DNA of 13,609 nt from an uncultured Ardenticatenia bacterium (GTDB lineage: Bacteria > Chloroflexota > Anaerolineae > Promineifilales > Promineifilaceae). The translations under genes and the position numbers were made by a program. Location of the stretch: positions 1-13,609 of the forward strand of contig CALLZA010000780.1 of assembly GCA_937858165.1 (NCBI GenBank). The letters are read 5' to 3'. Shown here one piece after another: positions 1-13,609 of this stretch. How positions within the stretch are numbered: position 1 is the stretch's first letter; every line of letters starts with the position of its first letter. The notes below the pieces were generated by a model that was not told where the DNA came from, ran no database searches, and saw nothing but the letters and a program-made list of their open reading frames with translations.

Positions 1-75
1 TTAACACGGTACTGTTGACGTAGTGTAGTTCATCAAGAAAAGTGTGTCACAATGGATTTGGTTCTTTTTTTTTTC
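1..75. other. Noise beyond the adapter, with a T run (non-biological)
   Basis: This stretch lies outside the P7 adapter end and contains a run of ten T at 65-74. The other contig end shows the mirror image: P5, then poly-A, then noise. Poly-A followed by random calls is what a read gives after it runs off the end of the library molecule, so this is sequencing artefact and should not be annotated as genome. Confidence 0.85.
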
Positions 76-2193: not shown

Positions 2194-2901
2194 TTAGCGA
2201 CGCAGCGACTCTTGCAGGGCGCTCATGCGGTTGGCGACGCTGTCGTCCACCACCCGGTCGCCCACGCGCACGATCAGCCCGCCCAGGATGGTCGGGTCGA
2301 CCTTGAACTGGACGTTGCTCGCGCCGACGATCTTGCGCACAGACTCTTGCTCGGCGGGCGTCAGGGGCAGGGCGCTGGTGATCTCGGCGGCGTCGCCCTT
2401 CAACGCGCCCACTTCGGCCGGGACGCGGCTGAAGAAGTCGTTGATGAGCTGATGCTGCCGCCGCTCGTCCAGCGACTCGCCGACCAGCTTGTTGGCGGCG
2501 GCGATGGAGATGGCCGCTACCTGGCCGCGCAGGTCGGCCAGAATGCGGTTGCGCTCCTCGGTCGCCTCGGTCTGAGCCGTGGCCATGATGCCCTTGGCGT
2601 CCTCGCGGGCGCGGGCCTCGACATCCTTGGCCGCCTGTTCGGCGGCAACGACCGCCTCGCGGCGGATGTTGGATGCCTCGACGCGAGCCTCGTCCAGGAT
2701 GCGCTTGGCGTCGGCGTCGGCGCTCTGGCGGGCGATCTCCGCCTGGCGGGCGTCTTCCAGCCCCTTGGCGATGCGCGCCTTGCGCTGGTCGAGCACGCGC
2801 AGGATGGGCTTGTAGACGAAAGCCGTCAACAACAAAATCAGCGCAGTGATGCCCAGGATTTGCGTCAGCAGGTAACCCAGGTTAATGCCTAATGCTTCCA
2901 T
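2194..2901 (-). CDS. atpF: F-type ATP synthase fused b-delta subunit (AtpF-AtpH)
   Basis: This forms the peripheral stalk that holds F1 against the rotating c-ring. Residues 8-30 form the single membrane anchor of subunit b, followed by a PILRVLDQRKARI stretch and a long charged Ala/Glu/Arg coiled coil to about 155. Residues 170-235 are unlike b and match the C-terminal part of delta (OSCP), with LTPAEQ near 180 and VDPTILGGLIVRVGD at 201-215. The six-helix N-terminal domain of delta is missing, so 235 residues do the work of two proteins. A comparable b-delta merger is known in mycobacterial ATP synthase and in the N-type ATPases. The ATG at 2901 is chosen over an upstream in-frame start because GAGAGGA (2908-2914) lies 6 nt before it and the anchor begins at once. 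It is the last gene of the unit, 58 nt after atpE, and no atpA follows. Confidence 0.92.
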   Translation of the reverse strand: MEALGINLGYLLTQILGITALILLLTAFVYKPILRVLDQRKARIAKGLEDARQAEIARQSADADAKRILDEARVEASNIRREAVVAAEQAAKDVEARAREDAKGIMATAQTEATEERNRILADLRGQVAAISIAAANKLVGESLDERRQHQLINDFFSRVPAEVGALKGDAAEITSALPLTPAEQESVRKIVGASNVQFKVDPTILGGLIVRVGDRVVDDSVANRMSALQESLRR

Positions 2902-2959
2902 TCGTGGTCCTCTCGATTGTGCATAAGCCGGCGAACACAGACCGCCGGACGGCATTGCT

Positions 2960-3208
2960 CTAGAACACGAACAGGATGATCAGGGCGACGACCAGGGCGT
3001 AGATAGCTACGGCCTCGGTGAACGCGATGCCCAGAATCATGTTCGTCTGAATGTTACCGCTGGCGTCGGGATTGCGGGCGATACCTTGCACCGCGCCGCC
3101 GACCAGGATGCCGATACCGGCACCGGCGCCGATGGCGCCCAACATAGCCAGGCCGGCGCCGATGGCCTTGAGACCTTCTGCCAAAGCGGCTGCAGACAAC
3201 TCATCCAT
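2960..3208 (-). CDS. atpE: F-type ATP synthase subunit c (AtpE)
   Basis: This is an 82-residue hairpin of two membrane helices, copies of which form the rotor ring in F0. The glycine motif G27-x-G29-x-G31-x-G33 packs the inner helices, R45-N46-P47 marks the cytoplasmic loop, and E65 is the ion-carrying carboxylate. Sodium-type rings carry Gln at position 32 and Ser or Thr at 66. This protein has I32 and A66, so protons are the likely ion. The ATG at 3208 is set by a strong GGAGGA (3215-3220) 6 nt upstream. An in-frame ORF extends further upstream, but its sequence is unlike subunit c. A 120-nt gap with a small hairpin separates it from atpB, fitting separate and stronger translation of this many-copy subunit. 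Confidence 0.97.
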
Positions 3209-3214
3209 GAATAA

Positions 3215-3258
3215 TCCTCCAGTGTTCGCTAGTTTGGCTTGTCGGCGCTGGAGCGCCG
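3215..3258 (-). promoter_or_regulatory. atpE translation leader: hairpin plus strong ribosome binding site
   Basis: The gap before atpE holds a 7-bp inverted repeat (CGGCGCT at 3243-3249 with AGCGCCG at 3252-3258) and a consensus GGAGGA (3215-3220) at ideal spacing. Enhanced atpE translation is known in E. coli. A similar role here is inference. Confidence 0.45.
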
Positions 3259-3328
3259 CAGTCGCCAGGATTTGACGTTCTTGATTGCTCTTACGCGCTG
3301 CCCGCAGGCGGCGCGGATTCACACACGA

Positions 3329-4471
3329 TTAGTGATGTTCCTCGTCGCCGCCGTGGTGTTCGGTGGCGCTGCTCATGAAGATGAGCGTCAGCAGGCCGAA
3401 AACGATGGCCTGGATGACGCCGACGAAGAACTCCAGCCCGAAGAAGGCGATGTTCAGCACGTTCAGAATGTAGGCCATGACGAACAGCAAGACCATGCCG
3501 GCGAACATGTTGCCCAGAAGACGGAAGGAGAACGAGAGGATCTTGGAGATTTCGCTGATCAACTCCAGGATGCCGACGGCCGGATCGATGGCGGCGATAG
3601 GATTCTTGGCCACCTGCGCGCCCCAGCCCTTCTTCAGGAACGGGAAGAACTTGGTCAGATAGCCGCCGCCCAGGTGCTTGAAGCCATAGTACTGCACCAT
3701 CGTCATGGCGATCAGGGCGAAGGCCAGGGTCATGTTCAGGTCGGTGCTGGCCGGGCGGAAGAAAGGCACAATCGTCCAGTCGGCGGCCTCGATGTTGCGG
3801 CCGATAGCGTCGCCGTGCGAGTTGGTCTCGATGGGCGCGCCCTCGATGGCGTTGCTGTTGCGGATGAGGAACAGGCCGTCGCGCAGGCCCCACTCATTCG
3901 CATCGTCCACCTGGGCGAACGCTTCTTCCTCAATGACGTGGATCTCATCCTCGGTCAGCTCCCGGCCGTCGACGGTGGCCGCGGTTTCAGCTTCCTTCAC
4001 TGCCTTTTCGGCGATGAAGTGCGGCTTGTGTTCCCACAGGCCGATGCTGTCGTAGCCGGGGATGAGGCCCATCCAGTTGGAGACCAGGATGATGAGGATG
4101 AAGCTCATGAAGTAGGGGAAGAACTCCTTCACCTTTGGCCCGGCAATGTTCTGGGCGAAGTTATAGGCCCCTTCGATGATCATCTCGAAGAAGTTATAGA
4201 AGCCGGTGGGCACTTCGTCGGCCGTGCGCGAGCGCCCGCGGACGGCCAGGATGAGCAGCAGGATGACGCCCCAGGCCAGCAGGGTGGCCATGAAGGTATT
4301 GGTGATGCCGGTGTTGTTGAACAGGAAGCTGGGCAACAGCCCTTCGGTGCCGGGGTATACTTCGCCGGGCAGCTGGATGAACGGCAACACGGGCTTGGTA
4401 TAGCCGATGACCGAGCCAAAGACGATCATCAGGATGACGACAAGCAGGAGGATGTAGCGTTTCTTGATCAT
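3329..4471 (-). CDS. atpB: F-type ATP synthase subunit a (AtpB) with a large loop insert
   Basis: Subunit a provides the half-channels that carry protons to and from the c-ring. The essential arginine is R317 in SFRLLGNMFAG, with N321, and Q354 corresponds to E. coli Q252. The E. coli E219 position is M326 and the H245 position is E347. The protein has 380 residues against 271 in E. coli. It has an extra N-terminal membrane segment (about 5-25). A hydrophilic acidic loop of about 100 residues (140-240) sits between SNWMGLIPG and the STDLNMTLAFAL helix, where E. coli has roughly 30. The C-terminus is His/Glu-rich. Its ATG overlaps the TGA of the preceding atpI-like gene by 4 nt, implying translational coupling. 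It is followed by atpE. Confidence 0.96.
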   Translation of the reverse strand: MIKKRYILLLVVILMIVFGSVIGYTKPVLPFIQLPGEVYPGTEGLLPSFLFNNTGITNTFMATLLAWGVILLLILAVRGRSRTADEVPTGFYNFFEMIIEGAYNFAQNIAGPKVKEFFPYFMSFILIILVSNWMGLIPGYDSIGLWEHKPHFIAEKAVKEAETAATVDGRELTEDEIHVIEEEAFAQVDDANEWGLRDGLFLIRNSNAIEGAPIETNSHGDAIGRNIEAADWTIVPFFRPASTDLNMTLAFALIAMTMVQYYGFKHLGGGYLTKFFPFLKKGWGAQVAKNPIAAIDPAVGILELISEISKILSFSFRLLGNMFAGMVLLFVMAYILNVLNIAFFGLEFFVGVIQAIVFGLLTLIFMSSATEHHGGDEEHH

Positions 4472-4761
4472 ACGGCTGGTTTATCCCTCTCTTCTGCTTC
4501 AATGCGCTCGATGCTTGCCTGGGCGCGGCCGACCATCCAAAGGCTGATGCGGACCATCGCGAAGAGGGTCACGGGAAAGCTACCGAGCATGAAAATTACA
4601 GTGAAGATCTTGCGCTCGTTGCCGAGCATGTCGTCCAACAGCCAGCCGGCCCCAAAAGCGAGGCCAATAATCAGCAGGGCGACGATGCCCGTCACGCAAC
4701 CGACCTGGCCAACCATGTTAGCCATATGAGCGGTGCGGCGGAGGTTTTGATCTTGCGACAC
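4468..4761 (-). CDS. atpI: AtpI/AtpZ-like ATP synthase accessory membrane protein
   Basis: This is a 97-residue protein with two membrane helices (about 17-42 and 52-75) and the GWLLDDMLG turn typical of the AtpI/AtpZ family that precedes atpB in many operons. In that family the protein is linked to c-ring assembly or to magnesium/calcium handling. Identification rests on the two-helix layout, the LLD turn and the position. The start is GTG at 4761, with no Shine-Dalgarno visible. An ATG at 4725 is an alternative that keeps both helices. The gene is first in the atp unit, with a promoter at 4881-4908 and a leader of roughly 110 nt that contains a long inverted repeat. Confidence 0.82.
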   Translation of the reverse strand: MSQDQNLRRTAHMANMVGQVGCVTGIVALLIIGLAFGAGWLLDDMLGNERKIFTVIFMLGSFPVTLFAMVRISLWMVGRAQASIERIEAEERDKPAV

Positions 4762-4909: not shown

Positions 4910-6400
4910 TTAGCCGGGGAAGAATGCCGCGGCCGCTTCGCGCGTCAGTTCGAAGGCCGGCCCGGCGCTAACGCCCAGGTAGATGATAAAGACCACGGCG
5001 ATGACCAGCCCGACCTGGGCCGCGCGTGAGACGGGAATGGCGATGTCGTCCTGCTCCGAGCGATAGAGGTACATGACCTTGATGATGTTCAGGTAGTAGT
5101 AGAGGCCGACGAAGGCCATCAGGATGCCGACGAGCGCCAGCCACCACAACCCGGCGTCAATGGCCGACTTGAACAGGAAGAACTTGCCGAAGAAGCCGGC
5201 CGTCGGCGGGATGCCGCCCAGCGACAGCACGGCGAACAGCATCACCAGCGCCAGGAAGGGCGAACGCCGGTTCAGCCCGTTCAGGTCCTTGATCTCGTCC
5301 GCGCCGGTGGCGTTGCTGACCAGGATAATCACACCGAAAGCGGCGATGTTGGTGAAAACGTACATCAGCAAGTAGAACAGCGTCGCCCCGGAGCCGTCCT
5401 GGGTTAATGTGACGAGGCCGATGAGGGCGTAGCCGGCCTGGGCGATACTGGAGTAGGCCAGCAGGCGCTTGATGTTTGTCTGGTAGATGGCGACAAAGTT
5501 GCCCAGCAGCATGGTGATGATGCACATGGCGATGAGCATGGCCCACCACCCGCCCTGGATGACCGGGCCGAGCGCACCGGACAGGAAGACGCGCAGAAAG
5601 ACGGCAAACCCGGCCGCTTTCGACGCCGTGGACAGGAAGCCGGTGAAGGGCGTCGGCGCGCCCTCATAGACGTCGGGGGCCCAGAAGTGGTAGGGCACAA
5701 TAGAGGTCTTGAAGGCGAAGCCGACAACGACCAGCACGGCCGCCAGCAGCAAGAGCGGCTGGACGCCGTCGATCGGCCGGCCGGTGAGCACGTCGCCGAT
5801 GACGTAGAGGTTGGTCGCGCCGGTGACGCCGTAGACGAGGCTCATGCCGTAGAGCATCACCGCCGTGGTGAAAGCGCCGTAGACGAAGTACTTCATGCCC
5901 GCTTCCGACGAACGCCGTTCGCCAGTGTAGAAACCGGCCAGCAGATAGGACGAGATGCTGGCCGTCTCCAGGGCAACGTAGACCATGATGAGGTCGGTCG
6001 AGGCGGCCATCAGGCTGAAGCCGATGGTGGCCATGATGAGCAGGGCGTAGTACTCGATCTTCTGCAAGCGCGGCACGTCCATCGACAGCAGCGCGGTCAG
6101 GATGAGGGCCGAGAAGAACATGAGCCGGAAGACGAACGTCACCAGGTCATTGCGCATCATGCCGCCCCAGAAGACGCTCTCCGACACGCCCCAGGTGCGC
6201 CCCGGCTGGTCGAACAGCCAGAAGAGGGCCGCGGTCAGCACCAGCACGGCCACGCCGCCCCAGGCGGTGAACAGACCGACCTGCCGCGGGTTCGACGGCT
6301 TGAACAGCTTCTCATAGAGCAGAACGCAGAAGAGAATGACCAGTAGCGCGATCTCCGGGGCCAGGGCCAGCACCCAGGAGAGGGTAATATTGGGGCTCAC
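4910..6400 (-). CDS. nuoN: NADH-quinone oxidoreductase subunit N (NuoN)
   Basis: NuoN is the antiporter-like proton-channel subunit nearest the quinone end of the complex I membrane arm. It has 496 residues and about 14 membrane segments. The channel residues are present: E145 in TM5 (YVALETASISSYLL), K231 in TM7 (FAFKTSIVPYHFWAPD), K261 in TM8 (TASKAAGF) and K406 in TM12 (GFFGKFFLFK). The VYEGAPTP stretch after HFWAPD separates it from NuoM. Translation starts at GTG 6400, which shares one base with the TAG stop of the upstream nuoM, and GGGAGG lies 6 nt upstream, so the two are coupled. It is the last nuo gene in this unit; the atp promoter begins immediately after its stop. Confidence 0.97.
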   Translation of the reverse strand: MSPNITLSWVLALAPEIALLVILFCVLLYEKLFKPSNPRQVGLFTAWGGVAVLVLTAALFWLFDQPGRTWGVSESVFWGGMMRNDLVTFVFRLMFFSALILTALLSMDVPRLQKIEYYALLIMATIGFSLMAASTDLIMVYVALETASISSYLLAGFYTGERRSSEAGMKYFVYGAFTTAVMLYGMSLVYGVTGATNLYVIGDVLTGRPIDGVQPLLLLAAVLVVVGFAFKTSIVPYHFWAPDVYEGAPTPFTGFLSTASKAAGFAVFLRVFLSGALGPVIQGGWWAMLIAMCIITMLLGNFVAIYQTNIKRLLAYSSIAQAGYALIGLVTLTQDGSGATLFYLLMYVFTNIAAFGVIILVSNATGADEIKDLNGLNRRSPFLALVMLFAVLSLGGIPPTAGFFGKFFLFKSAIDAGLWWLALVGILMAFVGLYYYLNIIKVMYLYRSEQDDIAIPVSRAAQVGLVIAVVFIIYLGVSAGPAFELTREAAAAFFPG

Positions 6401-8058
6401 TAAGCACCTCCCAACCAGCTCGAAAGGTTAGCGGCGACGATCTCCAGCAGGTGTTGAGCCGAGCCGGTAAGGGTTCCGCCGTGGAATTGGGCCGCCTGTT
6501 GGGCCACGTTCAGACGTTCGACGACCGGCACCATGCCCGACGTGACGATGGGGGCGATGACGGCCGGATAGACGCCGATGACGATCAGGATGACGGAGAA
6601 GCTGACGAGCACGAACTTGTCGATGCCCATCAGCGGTCGCATGTCGTGCCACTTCTCGGCGTCGTAGTCGCCGAAGAACACCGAGTGGACAGCGCGCAGG
6701 ATGTAGGCCGCGGTGATGATGATGCCCAGCACGGAGATGATGGCGACGATGCCGTAGTAGTTAGACGGGTTCAGCCCGAATACCGCGTTCACGTCGATGC
6801 TGTTGCCGTTCCAGACGCCGAGGAAGATGGGAAACTCGGCGATGAAGCCCGACAGCCCGGGCATGCCCATGCTGACGAGACCGCCGATGATGAAGGCCAC
6901 CACCGTCCAGGGCAGGGCGCGGCGCATGCCGCTCAACTCGTCCATGTCGCGGGTGTGGGCCCGGTCGTAGATCATGCCGACGACGGAGAAGAAGAGGGCC
7001 GTCATCACGCCGTGGCTGACCATCTGGATGCCCGCGCCGGTGAATCCGGCGATGGTCAGGGCGGCAAAGCCCATCGACACCAGCCCCATATGGCTGACGC
7101 TGGAGTAGCCGATGAGATACTTCATGTCCTTCTGTCGCATGGCGATGAACGCGCCATAGATGACGTTAACCAGGGTCAGCAGCAGGATGAACGGCAGCCA
7201 GTAGACGGCGCCCTCCGGCAGCAGTTGGATGCCGACGCGCATGGCGGCATAGGCCCCCAACTTCATCAGCACGCCGGCGTGGATCATTGACACGGCCGTC
7301 GGCGCGGCCACGTGGCCGTCAGGCGACCAGTTGTGGAACGGCCACAGACCGGCCAGCACACCGAAGCCCAGAAAGAGGGGCATGAACCAGATGATCTGGG
7401 TGTCGAAGGCGAAGCTGGCCTCCGACCAGATGCGCAGGTCGAACGTTCGCAGTGGCGCGCCGCCGTCCACCGGCGTGAAGTAGAGCACCAGGAAGGCGAT
7501 GAACGAGACGAAGCTGCCGATGAGCAAGTAGAGGGTCAGCTTCATGGCCGCGTATTCGCGGCTGACCTTCCAGCCCCAGACGACGATCAGGACGTACATA
7601 GGCAGCACGGCCAGTTCGTAGAAGAAGAAGAGCAGGAACGCATCGACGGCGATGAAGACGCCGTGGACGCCGGCCACCAGCAGCATGAAGAAGGCGTAGA
7701 ACTCGCGCGGCCGATCCTCAATGCTCCACGAGACCAGCACGCCGCCCAGACCGACGATGCTGGTCAGCAGCACCAGTGTGGCGCTCAGCCCGTCGACGCC
7801 GACGATGTAGTTCAGGTCGATGCTGGCAACCCAGTTGTACTCTTCGACAAAGCGCAGCGATTCGGCCCACGGCGTGCCCGCTTCCGGCAAGCTTTGGTAG
7901 GTGGCGATGTAGACGTAGAGCGACAGTACCAGCCCCAGCACCATGGCCGCCAGCCCCAACATGCGGGCGTTTTCGCCCCGCTCCTTGGGCATCATCAAGA
8001 TGAGCACGGCAAAGAGGATGGGCGAGAGTGCGATGATCGATAGGTATGGGAAGTCCAT
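6400..8058 (-). CDS. nuoM: NADH-quinone oxidoreductase subunit M, divergent paralogue lacking the TM7 lysine
   Basis: This is an antiporter-like complex I subunit of 552 residues with the core fold intact: E148 in TM5 (FFYELAVLPMY), K266 in TM8 (VLMKLGAY) and E408 in TM12 (GFIAEFPIF). Aligning WPFHNWSPDGHVAAPTA with WPFHTWLPDAHTQAPTA of the other NuoM puts L235 where the TM7 lysine should be. It also has SPDGH for LPDAH and MIHAGV for MILAGV, marks of a separate NuoM lineage rather than a recent duplicate. The C-terminus is extended by some 40 residues. ATG at 8058 has a weak GGGGA upstream, and a long inverted repeat separates the gene from the other nuoM. It probably forms an extra proton-channel module, altered at one key site. 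Confidence 0.93.
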   Translation of the reverse strand: MDFPYLSIIALSPILFAVLILMMPKERGENARMLGLAAMVLGLVLSLYVYIATYQSLPEAGTPWAESLRFVEEYNWVASIDLNYIVGVDGLSATLVLLTSIVGLGGVLVSWSIEDRPREFYAFFMLLVAGVHGVFIAVDAFLLFFFYELAVLPMYVLIVVWGWKVSREYAAMKLTLYLLIGSFVSFIAFLVLYFTPVDGGAPLRTFDLRIWSEASFAFDTQIIWFMPLFLGFGVLAGLWPFHNWSPDGHVAAPTAVSMIHAGVLMKLGAYAAMRVGIQLLPEGAVYWLPFILLLTLVNVIYGAFIAMRQKDMKYLIGYSSVSHMGLVSMGFAALTIAGFTGAGIQMVSHGVMTALFFSVVGMIYDRAHTRDMDELSGMRRALPWTVVAFIIGGLVSMGMPGLSGFIAEFPIFLGVWNGNSIDVNAVFGLNPSNYYGIVAIISVLGIIITAAYILRAVHSVFFGDYDAEKWHDMRPLMGIDKFVLVSFSVILIVIGVYPAVIAPIVTSGMVPVVERLNVAQQAAQFHGGTLTGSAQHLLEIVAANLSSWLGGA

Positions 8059-8077
8059 AGTGTTTCCCCAGAAAGAA

Positions 8078-8148
8078 GGGGCCAGGTTCCAGGGGCCAGG
8101 TTCCAGGAAAGACTTTTCCCTGGAACCTGGCCCCTGGAACCTGGAACC
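8078..8148. repeat. Long inverted repeat of CCAGGTT/CCAGGGG heptamers
   Basis: The left arm is four 7-mers: CCAGGTT, CCAGGGG, CCAGGTT and CCAGGAA (8082-8109). The right arm is their inverted copy. Bases 8082-8107 pair perfectly with 8119-8144 (26 bp) around an 11-nt loop, and 8078-8079 with 8147-8148 extend it after two mismatches. The outer edge is the last base of the TAG stop of the upstream nuoM (8150-8148). Almost all of the gap is this element. No U tract follows, so it is not a standard terminator. Confidence 0.92.
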
Positions 8149-9695
8149 TAACTGCTAAAGAGCCTCGTCACAGTATCGTTAATGACGGCCAGCAACCACT
8201 GTGGCCAGATGCCCAGGCTGAGCATCAGGACCATGAGCGGCCAGATGACCAGATGTTCGCGGACAGTCATCTCCGGCAGCCCCGCCCAGCGCGGCTTCAG
8301 CGGGCCGTGGAGCGTCGCGCCGATGCCCTTCAGGATGTAAGCGCCGGTCATGAGCAGGCCCAGCATCGACAGGGCCAGTTGCACGGTGAAGACCGACCAC
8401 GCGCCGCGAATGACCATGAACTCGCCCACGAAGCCGTTGAGGCCGGGCAGGCCCAGCGAGGCCATGCTGGTGAAAATGAGGATCATGCCGTAGACGGGCA
8501 TGACCGTCCAGATGCCGCCATACTCCTTCAGGTCGCGGGTGTGGGTGCGCGAATAGATGACGCCGACGAGGAAGAACATGCCCGCGGCCGACAAACCGTG
8601 GTTGAACATCTGCATCACCGCGCCGTTGGTGGCGATGATGGCGTCGTAGCTTAGCCCCGCGGCGCGGCCGGGCAGGCCATAGGCGTAGGCCATGACGGCA
8701 ATGCCCAGGACGACGAAGCCCATGTGGTTGATGGACGAGTAGGCCACCAGCCGCTTGAAGTCCCACTGGCCGAAGGCGGCGTAGGCTCCCAGGACGATGC
8801 TGAGCATGCCCAGCACGGCCAGGACGCCGGCTGTCAGGTGCGCCTGGGCCGGGAAGAGGGGAATGACTAGGCGGATGAAGCCATAGGCCCCCAGCTTCAA
8901 CAGCACGCCGGCCAGGATCATGGAGCCGGCCGTTGGGGCCTGGGTGTGGGCGTCGGGCAGCCAGGTGTGGAACGGCCAGATGGGCACTTTGATGGCGAAG
9001 GCGATGACGAACGCCCAGAAGGCGACGCCCTTCACCAGATCGACCGGGATGCCGGTGTTGGGCAAGACGCTGCCCGGCGGCAGGTTGACCCAGGTTGTCA
9101 TCAACTCCACGATGTCGAACGTGCCCATTGAGATGCCCATCACCTGGATAGCCAGCAGCAGGCCCAGGCTGCCGGCCATGGTGTAGATGATGAACTTGAA
9201 CGAGGCGTACTCGCGATCCTTGCCGCCCCACAGCTTGATCAGGAAGTACATCGGCACCAGGCCGAACTCCCAGAAGATGAAGAAGATGATCAGGTCGAGC
9301 GAGGCGAACAGGCCCAGCATGGCCGTTTCCATGAGCAGGAAGAGGAACATATAGGTGCGCACGTTCTCTTCGATCTCAAAGGAGGCCAGAATCGCCAGCG
9401 GCGTCAGCAGTGTGGTCAGCAGCAGCATCGCCAGGCTGATGCCGTCGATGCCGATGTGGAAGCTGGAGCCGATGGCCGGGAACCACGGCAACATCGTTTC
9501 GAACTGCATGCCGGCGTCCACGCGGTCATAGTTGAACCACATGATCAATACCAGCACCAGCGGCACGAGGCTGAACAGCAGCGCCAGCCGGCGGGCGGTG
9601 TCCTTGGCGTCGTCGGGCAAGACGAAGATCAGCAGTGATGCCGCCAGTGGGAAGAAGATCGTCAGGATCAGGAGGTTGTTGAGAATGACGTCCAT
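8148..9695 (-). CDS. nuoM: NADH-quinone oxidoreductase subunit M, canonical paralogue (NuoM)
   Basis: This is an antiporter-like proton-channel subunit of complex I with 515 residues, close to the usual NuoM length. All key charges are present: E143 in TM5 (FFIFWEFGLVPMY), K236 in TM7 (AFAIKVPIWPFHTWLPDAH), K267 in TM8 (LLKLGAY) and E425 in TM12 (GFVGEF). It lies directly after nuoL and before a second, divergent nuoM, so the complex encoded here should contain two M-type subunits. ATG at 9695 has no clear Shine-Dalgarno. Long inverted repeats occupy the gaps on both sides, and its TAG stop touches the one downstream. Confidence 0.97.
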   Translation of the reverse strand: MDVILNNLLILTIFFPLAASLLIFVLPDDAKDTARRLALLFSLVPLVLVLIMWFNYDRVDAGMQFETMLPWFPAIGSSFHIGIDGISLAMLLLTTLLTPLAILASFEIEENVRTYMFLFLLMETAMLGLFASLDLIIFFIFWEFGLVPMYFLIKLWGGKDREYASFKFIIYTMAGSLGLLLAIQVMGISMGTFDIVELMTTWVNLPPGSVLPNTGIPVDLVKGVAFWAFVIAFAIKVPIWPFHTWLPDAHTQAPTAGSMILAGVLLKLGAYGFIRLVIPLFPAQAHLTAGVLAVLGMLSIVLGAYAAFGQWDFKRLVAYSSINHMGFVVLGIAVMAYAYGLPGRAAGLSYDAIIATNGAVMQMFNHGLSAAGMFFLVGVIYSRTHTRDLKEYGGIWTVMPVYGMILIFTSMASLGLPGLNGFVGEFMVIRGAWSVFTVQLALSMLGLLMTGAYILKGIGATLHGPLKPRWAGLPEMTVREHLVIWPLMVLMLSLGIWPQWLLAVINDTVTRLFSS

Positions 9696-9721
9696 AGTCG
9701 TGTCGCCAACCGCAAGAGAGT

Positions 9722-9796
9722 AACCACAGATTTCACGGGTGATACAGAGTTACAGAGTGGTTGGTGAACACTGTGTCATCTGTGAAATCCGTGGTT
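9722..9796. repeat. Inverted repeat of CACRGATNN-type nonamers
   Basis: Bases 9722-9747 pair with 9771-9796 with four mismatches in 26. Within each arm a word of about nine bases recurs: CACAGATTT, CACGGGTGA, TACAGAGTT on one arm and CACGGATTT, CACAGATGA, CACAGTGTT on the other. It fills most of the nuoL-nuoM gap and begins 10 nt after the nuoL stop. Similar CACGGATTT-type palindromes recur between genes in several bacterial phyla. Confidence 0.8.
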
Positions 9797-9806
9797 TCTT
9801 TCTGCT

Positions 9807-12062
9807 TTAGAAAATGTTCGAGATCAGCCCGCTGTTGATTAGCAAGAGAATCGCCGCCAACGCTGTGGCGATGAAGACGGAGATGAGCGCATACTCCTGC
9901 ACCTTGCCCGTCTGCAAGTAGCGGAACTCCTTGGCCATGGACAGGAAGCCGTCCTTGATCTTGTCGACGCCGCTGCTGATGACTACCTCTTCAAAGCGCT
10001 TGAAGGCGGCTCCGGTGCGGTAGAAGGCGCGGGCGATGCCGTGAAGAATTCCGTCAATGATGTTCTGGTCGATCAGTTCGTAGGCAATCTTCTCTGAGAA
10101 GTAGGTCGTCGGGGCGACGAACAGCCGCTGATAGAGGCCATCCCAGCCCCACTTGTTGTTCAGGAAGCCGTGGGCCGGGCCGAGAGTGCGAATCATCGGG
10201 TCGGGCTGGCCGGTTTCCAGCGGCCGCCGGCCATAGACCCACCAGCCGAGCGCCAGCCCGCCCAGGGCCACCACCAGCGAGACGATCAGCGGAACCCACG
10301 ACCAGGGCAGGGTCTCAAAGGTGTGGGCCACCAGCCCCCGCTCATACAGCTCTTCCATCAGGTGGTAGTACTCCGCCCCGGCGTAGTGGTGGAAGAAGTT
10401 ATAGAAGATGCCGTCCGTGCCCAGGAAGCGGTCGGAGATGCCGCTCCAGCCTACGGTGACGGCGAACAGCGACAGCAGCACCAGCGGTATGGTCATGAAC
10501 GGCGAGCTTTCGTGGGCGTGTTCGGCCAGCTGGGTGCGCGGTTTGCCCAGGAAGGTCATGCTGATCTGGCGCGCCGTGTAGAAGGCAGTCAGCAGCGCGG
10601 CCACGGCCAGGGTGATAAAGACAACCAGAGCCAGCAGCTTGGCGTCGTGGGACCACTGGTACCACGCTTCGGCGAAGATCTCGTCCTTCGACCAGAAGCC
10701 GGCGGTGACGAACGGGAAGCCGGCCAGGGCCAGGCCGCCGATGAGGAACGTCCAGAAGGTGACGGGCATCTTGTGGCGCAAGCCGCCCATGTTGCGCATG
10801 TCCTGCGGGTCGTGGTGGTGGTCGTGGACGTGCACCGCGCCGTGCTCCATGCCGTGGATGACTGAGCCGGAGGCCAGGAAGAGCAGCGCCTTAAAGAAGG
10901 CGTGGGTGATCAGATGGAACGTGGCCGGCACGTAGGCCCCCAGGCCGACGGCGGCGACCATGAAGCCCAACTGCGAGATGGTCGAATAGGCCAGTACGCC
11001 CTTGACGTCATACTGGGCCACGGCGATGGTGGCCGCCATGAGCGCCGTGAACGCGCCGATGCCGGCAATGATCAGCCCGGCGTAGGGCGTGCCTTCGATG
11101 CTGACGGCGATCAACGGGAAGATGCGCAACAGCATGAAGATACCGGCCGAGACCATGGCCGCGGCATGGATGATGGCGCTGACCGGGGTGGGGCCTTCCA
11201 TCGCGTCGGGCAACCAGACGTGCAGCGGCCACTGGGCCGACTTGCCGACCGTGCCGGTGAACAGCAGCAGCGTCATGATGCCCAGCCCGCCGAAGCCGAC
11301 CAGGTTGATAACCTGCTCGAACTTCTCGACGGTGAACGCCTCGCTAAAGTCCAGCGTGCCGAACGCCCACCAGAAGAAGACGATGCCCAGCAGCATGACC
11401 ACGTCGGCGATGCGGGTGGTCATGAACGCTTTCTTGGCCGCCTCGCGCGGCGGAATGCGGCTGATCTCCTGGTGCTCAGGGTAGTTGCGGGCATACCAGA
11501 AGCCGATCAGCGAGTAGGAGCAGAAGCCCATCAGTTCCCAGCCGACGAACAGCAGCAACAGGTTATCGGCCACCACCAGCAGCAGCATGGAGCCGCCGAA
11601 GAGGCACATGTAGCCGAAGAAGCGGGCCAGCAGCGGCTCTTCGGTCATGTCGTGCTGCGGCTCGCCCTTGTGCTTGCCCAGCCCGTGGCCCCAGTTGTGG
11701 TAGCCGACGCTGTAGACGAAGATCATCGTCGTGGCAAAGGAGACCATCAGGAGCATGATCGCCCCCAGCGGGTCAACGGCCACACCCATCTTGAGCCACT
11801 GCCCCTGGAAGAAGTCGCCCAGCGGCAGCCAGTGGACAGCGCTGGCGATCTGCTCCGGGTGTTCTTCCAGTTCGTGGAGGCCGCGGCCGAGGACGCTGAT
11901 GGCCACCGTCCAGCTCATGATCAGCGAGCTGATGATGGCGACCCAGGCGATGATCCAACTGAGTGTGCGGCTGCGCCAGGCGAACAGGGCGATGATGAAA
12001 AAGGCCGCGATCGGCATGGCCGGTATCAGCCAGGTCAGGGTGGTTAGGAGCTGCGCGTTCAT
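9807..12062 (-). CDS. nuoL: NADH-quinone oxidoreductase subunit L (NuoL), extended lateral helix
   Basis: NuoL is the distal antiporter-like subunit of complex I, whose C-terminal lateral helix runs along the other channel subunits. It has 751 residues against 613 in E. coli. Channel residues are present: E176 (TM5, FVGWELMGF), K274 (TM7, GTVGKSAQWPLHVWLPDAMEG), H299 (SAIIHAAAMV), K391 (HAFFKALLFL) and the K459-D460 pair (FWSKDEI). A His-rich loop (HVHDHHHD) is at 411-418. After FVAP (648-651) about 74 residues precede the final membrane helix, against about 44 in E. coli, consistent with a longer lateral helix suited to spanning an extra NuoM. The ATG at 12062 has no Shine-Dalgarno, because an inverted repeat ends 5 nt upstream of it. 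Confidence 0.97.
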   Translation of the reverse strand: MNAQLLTTLTWLIPAMPIAAFFIIALFAWRSRTLSWIIAWVAIISSLIMSWTVAISVLGRGLHELEEHPEQIASAVHWLPLGDFFQGQWLKMGVAVDPLGAIMLLMVSFATTMIFVYSVGYHNWGHGLGKHKGEPQHDMTEEPLLARFFGYMCLFGGSMLLLVVADNLLLLFVGWELMGFCSYSLIGFWYARNYPEHQEISRIPPREAAKKAFMTTRIADVVMLLGIVFFWWAFGTLDFSEAFTVEKFEQVINLVGFGGLGIMTLLLFTGTVGKSAQWPLHVWLPDAMEGPTPVSAIIHAAAMVSAGIFMLLRIFPLIAVSIEGTPYAGLIIAGIGAFTALMAATIAVAQYDVKGVLAYSTISQLGFMVAAVGLGAYVPATFHLITHAFFKALLFLASGSVIHGMEHGAVHVHDHHHDPQDMRNMGGLRHKMPVTFWTFLIGGLALAGFPFVTAGFWSKDEIFAEAWYQWSHDAKLLALVVFITLAVAALLTAFYTARQISMTFLGKPRTQLAEHAHESSPFMTIPLVLLSLFAVTVGWSGISDRFLGTDGIFYNFFHHYAGAEYYHLMEELYERGLVAHTFETLPWSWVPLIVSLVVALGGLALGWWVYGRRPLETGQPDPMIRTLGPAHGFLNNKWGWDGLYQRLFVAPTTYFSEKIAYELIDQNIIDGILHGIARAFYRTGAAFKRFEEVVISSGVDKIKDGFLSMAKEFRYLQTGKVQEYALISVFIATALAAILLLINSGLISNIF

Positions 12063-12066
12063 AGGC

Positions 12067-12140
12067 AGTTGTTAGTTGTTAGTTGTCAGTTGTCAGTTGT
12101 CAGTGTCAAACTGATCACTGACAACTGACAACTAACAACT
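12067..12140. repeat. Long inverted repeat of AGTTGTY heptamers
   Basis: The left arm holds five 7-mers: AGTTGTT twice, then AGTTGTC three times (12067-12101). The right arm is three inverted copies. Bases 12074-12097 pair perfectly with 12117-12140 (24 bp). A shift by one heptamer gives another stem with 18 perfect inner pairs (12088-12105 with 12116-12133), so the hairpin can slip between registers. Its outer edge lies inside the nuoK stop codon (12141-12139) and the other edge is 4 nt from the nuoL start codon, so it fills the whole gap. Confidence 0.92.
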
Positions 12141-12447
12141 AGTTCTTCAGCGTATCGAGTTCCTCCGCGATGACCGAGTCGCGGCTGCGATAGACAGAGA
12201 TGACCAGGGCCAGACCGACGGCCGCTTCGGCCGCGGCAACGGTCAGAACAAACGTAGCCCACACCAGACCAACCGACTGATCGGGCGTGAAGTAGCGCCA
12301 GAAGGCGATCAGGTTGATGTTGACGGCGTTGAGCATCAGTTCGACACCCATCAGGATGGCGATGGCGTTGCGCCGGGCCAAGACGCCGTAGAGGCCAATG
12401 CAGAACAGGGCCGCGCTGAGCAGCAGGAACCACGACAGGGGAATCAC
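12139..12447 (-). CDS. nuoK: NADH-quinone oxidoreductase subunit K (NuoK)
   Basis: This is a 102-residue protein with three membrane helices that links NuoN-side channels to the J/H end of the complex I membrane arm. Two buried glutamates, E36 in TM2 (GVELMLN) and E74 in TM3 (AAAEAAVG), correspond to the pair in E. coli NuoK. The length is normal. The start is GTG at 12447, overlapping the TGA stop of nuoJ by 4 nt, with a strong GGAGGAG just upstream, so it is translationally coupled to nuoJ. Its TAG stop lies inside the AGTTGTY inverted repeat. Confidence 0.97.
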   Translation of the reverse strand: MIPLSWFLLLSAALFCIGLYGVLARRNAIAILMGVELMLNAVNINLIAFWRYFTPDQSVGLVWATFVLTVAAAEAAVGLALVISVYRSRDSVIAEELDTLKN

Positions 12448-12992
12448 TCGTTCTCCTCCTCGCCGCTGTGCGGCCAGGCGATGATGATGGAGCCGACGAG
12501 GGCCGCCAGCAGCAGCACGGAGGCCAGTTCAAACGGCAGCACGTAGGCCTCGGCGCTGACGAAGGAGCGGCCCAGGCGGGCGACGCTGCTCTGGAGCGTG
12601 GCCGGGTCGACCTGCGGCGCGGATTGCAGCGCGCCATCGGCCGGGATCATCGGGTAGAGCCGGACGATGACCACGACCAGGATGGCCAGGGTTAGCACCG
12701 CGCCGACCAACGCGCCGATGGCCTGCGAGTTAAACGGCGTCTCGTTGGTCTGCATCAGCCGGCGGGTCATCATGATGGCAAAGATGATCAGAATGGAGAT
12801 CGCGCCGATGTAGACGAGCAACTGGGCCATGCCCAGAAAGGGAGCTTCCAGAAGGACGTAGATGCCGGCCACGCCGACGAATGACACCATCAGGGCCAGC
12901 GCCGCGTGGAACAGGTTGCGCATGGTGACGACGACGATGGCCGACGTCAGCGTGATGGCGGCGAGGATGAAGAAGACGATCTGCTGGCTCAT
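12444..12992 (-). CDS. nuoJ: NADH-quinone oxidoreductase subunit J (NuoJ)
   Basis: This membrane subunit of complex I has 182 residues and five helices. The conserved third helix (about 55-76) has the YIGAISILIIF stretch with Y61 that lies beside the proton path and carries the pi-bulge in solved structures. The last helix (PFELASVLLLAALVG, 153-167) is also typical. The ATG at 12992 is chosen over a longer in-frame extension because the first helix begins directly after it and the upstream residues are low-complexity Pro/Thr/Arg sequence that overlaps nuoH in another frame. It follows the nuoH stop by about 30 nt without an intervening nuoI. Confidence 0.96.
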   Translation of the reverse strand: MSQQIVFFILAAITLTSAIVVVTMRNLFHAALALMVSFVGVAGIYVLLEAPFLGMAQLLVYIGAISILIIFAIMMTRRLMQTNETPFNSQAIGALVGAVLTLAILVVVIVRLYPMIPADGALQSAPQVDPATLQSSVARLGRSFVSAEAYVLPFELASVLLLAALVGSIIIAWPHSGEEENE

Positions 12993-13023: not shown

Positions 13024-13406
13024 CTAGTGGACGGGCACGGTGATCGGCTCGCGCGCGCCGAGCGGCCCGCCGTGGGCCTCCGGTTCGCTGTGGGCCGGTT
13101 CGGCGTGGCCGTGGGCGTCGTGTTCGTCGTGCAGCAGTTCGCGTCCGCCGGGTCCGTCGCCACCGTTCATCGCCAGCCGATTCTGTCGGCCGCGCCGCCG
13201 CAGGATCTCCAGGGTGACCGCGGCGATCAGGATGTTGAGTGTCAGATGGATGGCCATGCGCAGCACGACGTTTGTCCCACTGGGGATGAGTTTATCGACA
13301 ATGGCCGTGAAGAACAGCAGCGCCAGCGACACCGGCACCAGGAACTTCCAGTTGAAGTTGAGGATTTGGTCAACCCGAACGCGGGGTAGGGTGCTGCGAA
13401 CCCAGT
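13024..13406 (-). CDS. nuoH: NADH-quinone oxidoreductase subunit H (NuoH), C-terminal part only
   Basis: NuoH sits at the junction with the hydrophilic arm and helps form the quinone site. About 126 C-terminal residues remain, starting [20 protein letters not shown], which is the conserved NuoH pattern before its last helix ([17 protein letters not shown]). E. coli NuoH ends soon after that helix. Here a further hydrophobic segment ([20 protein letters not shown]) and a tail of about 50 residues rich in His, Glu and Gly ([20 protein letters not shown]) follow. The 5' part of the gene is cut off at 13406 by sequencing adapter, so the gene is truncated by assembly and not broken in the cell. 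Confidence 0.93.
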
Positions 13407-13476
13407 CTGTCTCTTATACACATCTGACGCTGCCGACGAGCGATCTAGTGTAGATCTCGGTGGTCGCCGTATCATT
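13407..13476 (+). other. Illumina Nextera i5/P5 adapter read-through (non-biological)
   Basis: Bases 13407-13425 are the Nextera mosaic end CTGTCTCTTATACACATCT, followed by GACGCTGCCGACGA (13426-13439). Next come an 8-base index GCGATCTA (13440-13447), the reverse complement of TAGATCGC (index 501), and the complete reverse complement of P5 (13448-13476). Every adapter base matches. Confidence 0.99.
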
Positions 13477-13609
13477 AAAAAAAAAAAACACATAAAGAGC
13501 AGCAGCGACAGAACAGAGAACGACGAAAAGCATAAGCATGAAACGGAATAAGTGCTATATACACAAGAAGATATACAGAAGAAGGAAGAGACACAGGAAG
13601 GAATGAAGG
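13477..13609. other. Poly-A and noise after the adapter (non-biological)
   Basis: Twelve A follow the P5 end directly and then about 120 bases of A/G-rich sequence without coding or repeat structure. This is the usual output when a read continues past the end of the library molecule. Nothing here should be annotated as genome. Confidence 0.93.

Follow-up and report, generated by a model that had tools for sequence, protein, structure and literature searches.

The 13,609-nucleotide stretch analysed here (hereafter the window) is the whole of contig CALLZA010000780.1 from the genome assembly of an uncultured Ardenticatenia bacterium (GCA_937858165.1; Chloroflexota, Anaerolineae, Promineifilaceae). 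It carries a nuo operon in which two NuoM genes, here denoted M-A and M-B, lie beside nuoL and nuoN (Table 1). The window is a further member of the described 2M kind of complex I, with two NuoM, which was reportedly defined by Chadwick et al. in 2018 and has already been reported in Chloroflexota. M-B falls in a NuoM clade that spans several phyla and has no lysine at the site in transmembrane helix (TM) 7 where M-A carries one. We consider it likely that the window encodes the membrane arm of a Chloroflexota-type 2M complex I in which NuoL, M-A, M-B and NuoN would form four antiporter-like modules, the extra one being non-canonical and lysine-less.

In the proposed arm, the NuoL lateral helix (HL), lengthened by one unit of ~26 amino acids (aa), would tie the four modules together, and the peripheral part would, as in relatives, consist of NuoB, NuoI and a fused NuoCD and lack a NuoEFG of its own. 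M-B, a member of an old NuoM subfamily that has lost its TM7 lysine, most likely fills one slot of the arm and would transmit protons and an electrostatic signal laterally from one neighbour to the other without a canonical Glu-Lys gated pump cycle. Its benefit to the enzyme may lie in tuning or in the length of the arm rather than in a certain fifth proton. An earlier note on this DNA had proposed a 2M complex I with one more proton channel than the standard enzyme; the architecture stands, given that the gene order is conserved, that a canonical nuo cluster exists separately and that the HL is longer by about 26 aa, but the additional channel is doubtful, the TM7 lysine being lost in every M-B orthologue examined.

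Two NuoM subfamilies in a conserved operon

The open reading frames and NCBIfam assignments agree with the earlier description of nuoL, nuoM, a divergent nuoM and nuoN as consecutive genes on one strand, with NuoM lengths of 515 and 552 aa, and the conserved-loop motifs by which the pair had been told apart, LPDAH and SPDGH, are both present. Over 529 aligned positions M-A is 31% identical to M-B; its identity to the NuoM of the canonical cluster of Candidatus Promineifilum breve is 41%. In a NuoM tree of 114 rows, M-B belongs to a separate clade of 28 rows with a support of 100 in the SH-like approximate likelihood ratio test (SH-aLRT), the only support measure used for our trees, and the same 28 rows lie on one side of a single branch (SH-aLRT 99, 113 rows) after removal of the 47 columns covering TM7-TM8. 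Because the identity is this low and the two proteins fall in separate supported clades, also without the TM7-TM8 columns, their sequences mark them as an old paralogue pair, as had been supposed. M-A groups with the lysine-bearing NuoM of other 2M loci from Chloroflexota, Acidobacteriota and Opitutae. The M-B clade comprises Chloroflexota, Acidobacteriota, Verrucomicrobiota, one Nitrospira and others, and includes one of the two NuoM from Acidobacteriaceae, Opitutae and a Nitrospira locus, so that M-B clusters with the second NuoM of other 2M loci, apart from M-A, one of the outcomes that the earlier note had named as support. The tree rows included 75 of the 90 NuoM from a contig scan with NuoL, 10 of the 30 M-B and 9 of the 38 M-A sequences; eight cyanobacterial rows, six from loci L177, L178 and L182 and one masked row were left out. 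The scan took the best 80 of 595 matches, and its phylum counts are not frequencies; the lysine label of its rows is the residue itself, to which the tree adds the coincidence of label and clade.

Four residues are key to NuoM: a glutamate in TM5, a lysine in TM7, a lysine in TM8 and a glutamate in TM12. M-A has all four (Glu143, Lys236, Lys267 and Glu425, respectively); M-B has Glu148 in TM5, Lys266 in TM8 and Glu408 in TM12 but Leu235 at the TM7 site, and does not possess the four-residue set of a canonical pump. The TM7 lysine occurs in none of the 28 rows inside the M-B clade and in all 86 rows outside it. Independently of the tree label, the site is occupied by leucine in 25 and threonine in 5 of 30 M-B orthologues, and by leucine in 120 of 120 close M-B homologues. 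The lysine is kept in all 38 M-A rows (several from the same genomes), in the four NuoM of canonical clusters, and in 44/44 NuoL and 42/42 NuoN of the 2M operons compared. No new protonatable residue was found near TM7 in M-B, and a Lys/Arg at position 481 is the one charge gain to pass the test. The literature searched, which did not include the paper defining 2M complexes, holds no mention of a TM7 substitution in a second NuoM.

The order nuoA-H-J-K-L-MA-MB-N is the same in all 14 related loci that were read, and the arrangement in the window is therefore not due to chance. Open reading frames matching the atp genes of the window follow the 2M operon in 12 of these 14 loci. A nuoA-H-J-K-L-M-M-N cluster is also present in the cultured Leptolinea tardivitalis (locus L180). 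M-B orthologues (above 380 bits; the next score, after a gap, is 305) were found in 33 of 120 genomes of the class, the window's own included, and M-A adjoins M-B in each of the 25 genomes with the locus read beyond M-B (the 14 loci and 11 more, out of the 32 genomes that have M-B besides the window's own). In an Opitutaceae locus (L191), the order of the two NuoM genes is reversed, with the M-B type preceding the M-A type.

A frame of the length of a fused NuoCD was found elsewhere in the genome in 14 of the 14 M-B genomes searched, and nuoB, fused nuoCD and nuoI stand together as a unit in all 11 loci fetched from relatives; both four-cysteine motifs are kept in the three NuoI that were read. 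No match to nuoE, nuoF or nuoG (E 1e-5) was obtained in the 14 cluster loci or the 11 nuoB-CD-I loci, which do not show the 14-subunit composition of the canonical NADH enzyme. Two genomes, G009 and G110, each have a single NuoF-type gene; that of G009 lies inside its canonical cluster, and the 2M complex of G009 therefore has no NuoF of its own. The subunit set of the relatives (A-H-J-K-L-M-M-N and a separate B-CD-I, with nuoEFG not found) points to no particular electron donor. The fused NuoCD type is more common than M-B (matches above 620 bits in 69 of the same 120 genomes, compared with 33 for M-B), so many relatives have the complex without a second NuoM. A P-loop ATPase of the ApbC/Mrp type, named from its sequence without a family search, accompanies nuoB-CD-I in 8 of the 11 loci (L101-L111); an assembly factor for the iron-sulphur clusters of complex I is among the proteins of this type. 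Contigs C207, C977 and C190 of the window's genome hold a set resembling group 4 hydrogenases (NuoB-, C-, D-, H- and I-like proteins and a maturation protease-like protein, named from matches and sequence) together with Mrp-like antiporter genes.

The earlier note would have been refuted by a second nuo cluster that uses one of the two NuoM. Second clusters exist, but we rejected this explanation because the canonical clusters of P. breve and of genomes G084, G025 and G009 have a NuoM of their own; the nuoN of the P. breve canonical cluster is probably an antiporter gene ~12 kb further on. The second cluster of the window's genome is split over contigs C800 and C561 and ends inside nuoL with its NuoM part not covered, and is judged from these relatives.

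Length of the NuoL lateral helix

The HL was measured between two fixed anchors, the LY preceding the helix and the Gln preceding TM16. In the window NuoL it spans 75 aa, compared with 47-49 aa in short-form NuoL (48 in most canonical ones), and is thus longer by one insertion of ~26 aa; residues 637-713 are predicted as a continuous helix, with confidence dropping to about 40-50 at the end. Total length is a poor guide, since NuoL has 774 aa in the canonical cluster of P. breve and 751 in the window. We compiled 154 NuoL in one alignment, of which 151 were measurable (L201 and L233 are truncated and L240 is misassigned); Anaerolineae are strongly over-represented in this set, and some named loci may be from the same species as genomes with G designations.

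All 45 two-M loci have an HL of 73-77 aa. The 82 single-M loci in which nuoN was seen divide into 44 with a short and 38 with a long HL, the latter consisting of 32 in the 73-78 class, two of 96, three of ~100 and one of 128 aa, from lineages that include Zixiibacteriota, Poribacteria, Vicinamibacteraceae, Bacteroidota, Bacillota and Acidobacteria. Since 38 of 82 single-M loci share it, a long HL is not specific for, or diagnostic of, 2M complexes; HL length as proof of 2M was expected, tested and rejected in that role, and the earlier argument from the long lateral region of NuoL retains its length difference (75 versus 48 aa) and loses its specificity. The association of two NuoM with a long HL gives a Fisher p of 1.3e-11, which ignores relatedness and is descriptive only, and an independent-pairs test yielded 3 supported pairs, too few for significance.

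HL lengths fall into steps of 47-49, 73-77 (77-78 in some canonical clusters), 99-102, 126-129 and 149-154 aa. In Anaerolineae the HL grows by ~26-aa steps to ~150 aa, even though each operon read there contains a single nuoM. Among 120 homologues of a long-HL NuoL, a set leaning to long HL because the HL of the query is itself 128 aa, the lengths are 74-75 (6 proteins), 99-102 (95), 126-129 (17), 149 (1) and 154 (1). When HL segments of at least 99 aa are compared with themselves, the best shift is 26 aa in 103 of 118, 27 in 13 and 23 in 2. Loci L127 and L130, with an HL of 96 aa, are off the steps unless the residues preceding the repeats are set aside. Four of 20 canonical-cluster NuoL have an HL of 77-78 aa, most with an FWHDF-like insert unlike the repeat units; canonical NADH-type clusters of Anaerolineae with this length and a different insert are L052, L054, L056, L129 and L195, and their HL is apparently an independent extension. 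The HL length series was not found in the literature searched, the 2M-defining paper not being part of it.

In a NuoL tree built without the HL, the two-M clade of the window (23 rows, support 99) is nested among single-M, long-HL Anaerolineae, and its sister is a protein with an HL of 154 aa (support 96). Because of this nesting, the tree suggests that in this line the long HL is older than M-B; loss of M-B in the other lines could also account for the pattern.

A stretch of ~26 aa corresponds to ~39 Å of helix, close to the spacing of the antiporter modules, whose TM7 helices are linked by the HL. One extension of our reading, compatible with it and possible if doubtful, is that the HL gains one ~26-aa unit per module beyond the canonical three, that single-M relatives stack the same NuoM two or more times, and that M-B is a copy specialised for one slot. 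The stepwise lengths, the 26-aa self-match of most long segments and the occurrence of single-M, long-HL loci in several phyla fit this idea, as does genome G017 (rated 92% complete), in which an HL of 128 aa goes with L, M and N as the only strong antiporter genes, next to a single weak 44-bit match; the HL has been described as connecting the TMH7 helices (PMC7419157). On the other hand, the idea draws on sequence lengths rather than structure or stoichiometry, unequal crossing-over would also yield length steps at a constant subunit number, most of the longest HL belong to a set gathered with a long-HL query, AlphaFold2 confidence is low for long HL, the two loci of 96 aa are a misfit, and most single-M genomes searched could borrow a second NuoM from a canonical cluster. 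If it is true, single-nuoM complexes with one to four extra units would have arms of four to seven modules, the 2M complex of the window would be a branch with a separate, lysine-less NuoM in one stacked position, and the number of NuoM copies in complex I would not equal the number of genes. In any case, HL length does not track nuoM gene number, and repeated use of one subunit may possibly make complex I arms differ in length.

Proton pumping and the place of M-B

A rather unlikely alternative is a standard 2M enzyme in which M-B is a full fourth pump and five protons are moved per two electrons. The extra proton is the published interpretation (PMC8004040, PMC7117926, PMC6606698), and in the portions of the literature compared the claim is derived from the presence of an additional gene and a lengthened NuoL. 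The conserved tandem order and the HL extension agree with it, as does the retention in M-B of the glutamates of TM5 and TM12 and, mostly, of the TM8 lysine; the consistent lack of the TM7 lysine within the clade, with no charge nearby to replace it, does not. In Escherichia coli NuoM, E144, K234 and K265 are reported to be essential, and substitutions at these positions eliminated quinone reductase activity and lowered or eliminated pumping (PMC5061711). Furthermore, LysTMH7 has been termed absolutely conserved and, with GluTMH5 and the LysTMH12 of the neighbouring subunit, a coupling point (PMC7419157). The M-B sequence argues against the canonical cycle and would still allow other movement of protons.

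Several observations weigh against the preferred reading of a non-canonical, lysine-less module in a four-module arm. Within the M-B clade, the glutamates of TM5 and TM12 are each kept in 28 of 28 rows and the TM8 lysine in 24 of 28; among the 30 M-B orthologues, both glutamates occur in all and the TM8 lysine in 23, the other seven having a lysine one position earlier. Because these residues are retained, a pump cycle via TM8 and TM12 alone is possible, and the proton path of Mrp has been drawn around TMH8 and TMH12 with a regulatory role for the LysTMH7 pair (PMC7419157). Three rows of the M-B clade, from Limisphaerales, Gemmatimonas and Zixiibacteriota (L216, L220 and L232), are the sole NuoM of their locus, with a short HL of 48 aa, and given these loci a lysine-less NuoM can serve a working complex. 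A two-M locus from Myxococcota (L198) lies outside the M-B clade and has the lysine in both NuoM. Moreover, a nuoB-CD-I unit of the Chloroflexota 2M type was not found in the window's own metagenome-assembled genome (MAG), which is 79% complete, and the placing of both NuoM in one complex is inferred from the genes.

The sole-NuoM loci would also suit an arrangement in which M-A and M-B are alternatives for one slot, exchanged according to conditions. We regard this as improbable, for M-A and M-B are neighbours in every one of the 25 genomes in which this could be seen, and the long HL of all 45 two-M loci stands against the short HL of the three loci whose only NuoM is lysine-less. A recent tandem duplication without functional meaning, to which the adjacency of homologous genes might point, is refuted by the NuoM trees and has practically nothing left in its favour, considering the low identity, the separate supported clades and a gene order conserved across families and phyla.

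The preferred reading of a four-module arm with a lysine-less extra module has a practical side: in the sampled lineages of its clade, the extra subunit lacks a residue to which an essential role in pumping is ascribed, and this loss makes the question of stoichiometry directly testable and provides a sequence marker for the extra module.

Gene layout and known 2M complexes

The window is the complete contig C780 of a fragmented MAG (4.45 Mb in 1043 contigs, 79% complete, 5.9% contaminated). Its minus strand reads, in order, nuoH fragment, nuoJ, nuoK, nuoL, nuoM-A, nuoM-B, nuoN, atpI, atpB, atpE, atpF, a CDP-alcohol phosphatidyltransferase gene and lgt. The best-ranked M-B homologue with an organism name is a protein of P. 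breve (P0020; 86% identity), and the P. breve genome is 82% identical to the window at the DNA level across 10.2 kb, so that the host is Promineifilum-like. Contig C180 (L017) carries nuoA-nuoH of the same cluster type as the window. Positions 5002-5308 of C180 (307 bp) match the nuoH end of the window at only 88% DNA identity, a divergence suggesting a mixture of two strains or species in the MAG. A PF00146 match at 13303-13539, in the nuoH region, contains an internal stop. The peptides encoded at contig ends (window positions 1-60 and ~13400-13609, and the ends of C561, C207, C190, C977 and C800) are of the sort known from Illumina adapter read-through, and because contig ends translate to such peptides it seems that nuoH, lgt and the canonical nuoL were interrupted as an artefact of assembly.

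Table 1. Features of the window discussed in the text (positions numbered from its first nucleotide)
Feature	Coordinates	Strand	Remarks
nuoN	4910..6400	-	496 aa; TIGR01770, 412 bits; TM7 Lys is K231, kept
nuoM-B (second NuoM, subfamily without TM7 lysine)	6400..8058	-	552 aa; TIGR01972, 430.3 bits
M-B Leu235 codon (TM7 lysine site in NuoM-A)	7354..7356	-	computed from residue number
nuoM-A (canonical-type NuoM)	8148..9695	-	515 aa; TIGR01972, 523.6 bits
nuoL	9807..12062	-	751 aa; NCBIfam match
nuoL lateral-helix (HL) segment	9912..10136	-	residues 643-717, 75 aa; coordinates computed from residue numbers
nuoK	12139..12447	-	NCBIfam match
nuoJ	12444..12992	-	start set at MSQQIV; open reading frame open to 13163
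nuoH C-terminal fragment	13024..13400 (upper limit approximate)	-	cut by contig end and adapter-like sequence
atpI-atpB-atpE-atpF, directly downstream of nuoN	2194..4761	-	named from sequences; context, outside complex I

Among known systems, HycC of the E. coli formate hydrogenlyase is a NuoM-like protein which, as M-B, has leucine at the position of NuoM K234 (PMC5061711). HycC, however, is an antiporter-like subunit of a hydrogenase complex and not part of a complex I arm. In Candidatus Manganitrophaceae, a 26-aa HL insertion has been described for Complex_I_3 and Complex_I_1/2 and also in the NuoL of complexes without extra pumps (PMC9040806); Complex_I_3 differs from the window in that MrpD-like subunits replace NuoL, and section 10 of that paper gives no series of HL lengths. 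The 2M complex I of Nitrospira (clade 3) resembles the window in its tandem NuoM and lengthened NuoL (PMC6606698). The Nitrospira locus in our set (L202) has an HL of 73 aa and a second NuoM in the lysine-less clade with isoleucine at the TM7 site, but contains nuoG and a different gene set, and its second NuoM is long-branched with moderate support (86) for its placement within the clade. This locus came from the NuoL scan; chlorite dismutase, used as a pointer to Nitrospira, had matches in 0 of 11 genomes.

The closest systems are the 2M complexes of other Chloroflexota. A duplication of nuoM in Chloroflexus aurantiacus was pointed out in 2011 (PMC3150298), and Chloroflexi 2M complexes have been described (PMC8004040, PMC7117926); as in the window, a duplicated nuoM stands beside nuoL and nuoN in C. 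aurantiacus, Chloroflexus aggregans, Anaerolinea thermophila and Lost City Chloroflexi. Chloroflexus has a second, complete nuo cluster in addition to a 2M cluster without a complete NADH module (PMC3150298, PMC8004040, PMC7117926), and in the Chloroflexi of PMC7117926 nuoBCDI is separate and nuoCD fused, as in the relatives of the window. The window does not differ in kind from these complexes; what it adds is a second NuoM without the TM7 lysine and, around it, single-nuoM relatives with the same long HL.

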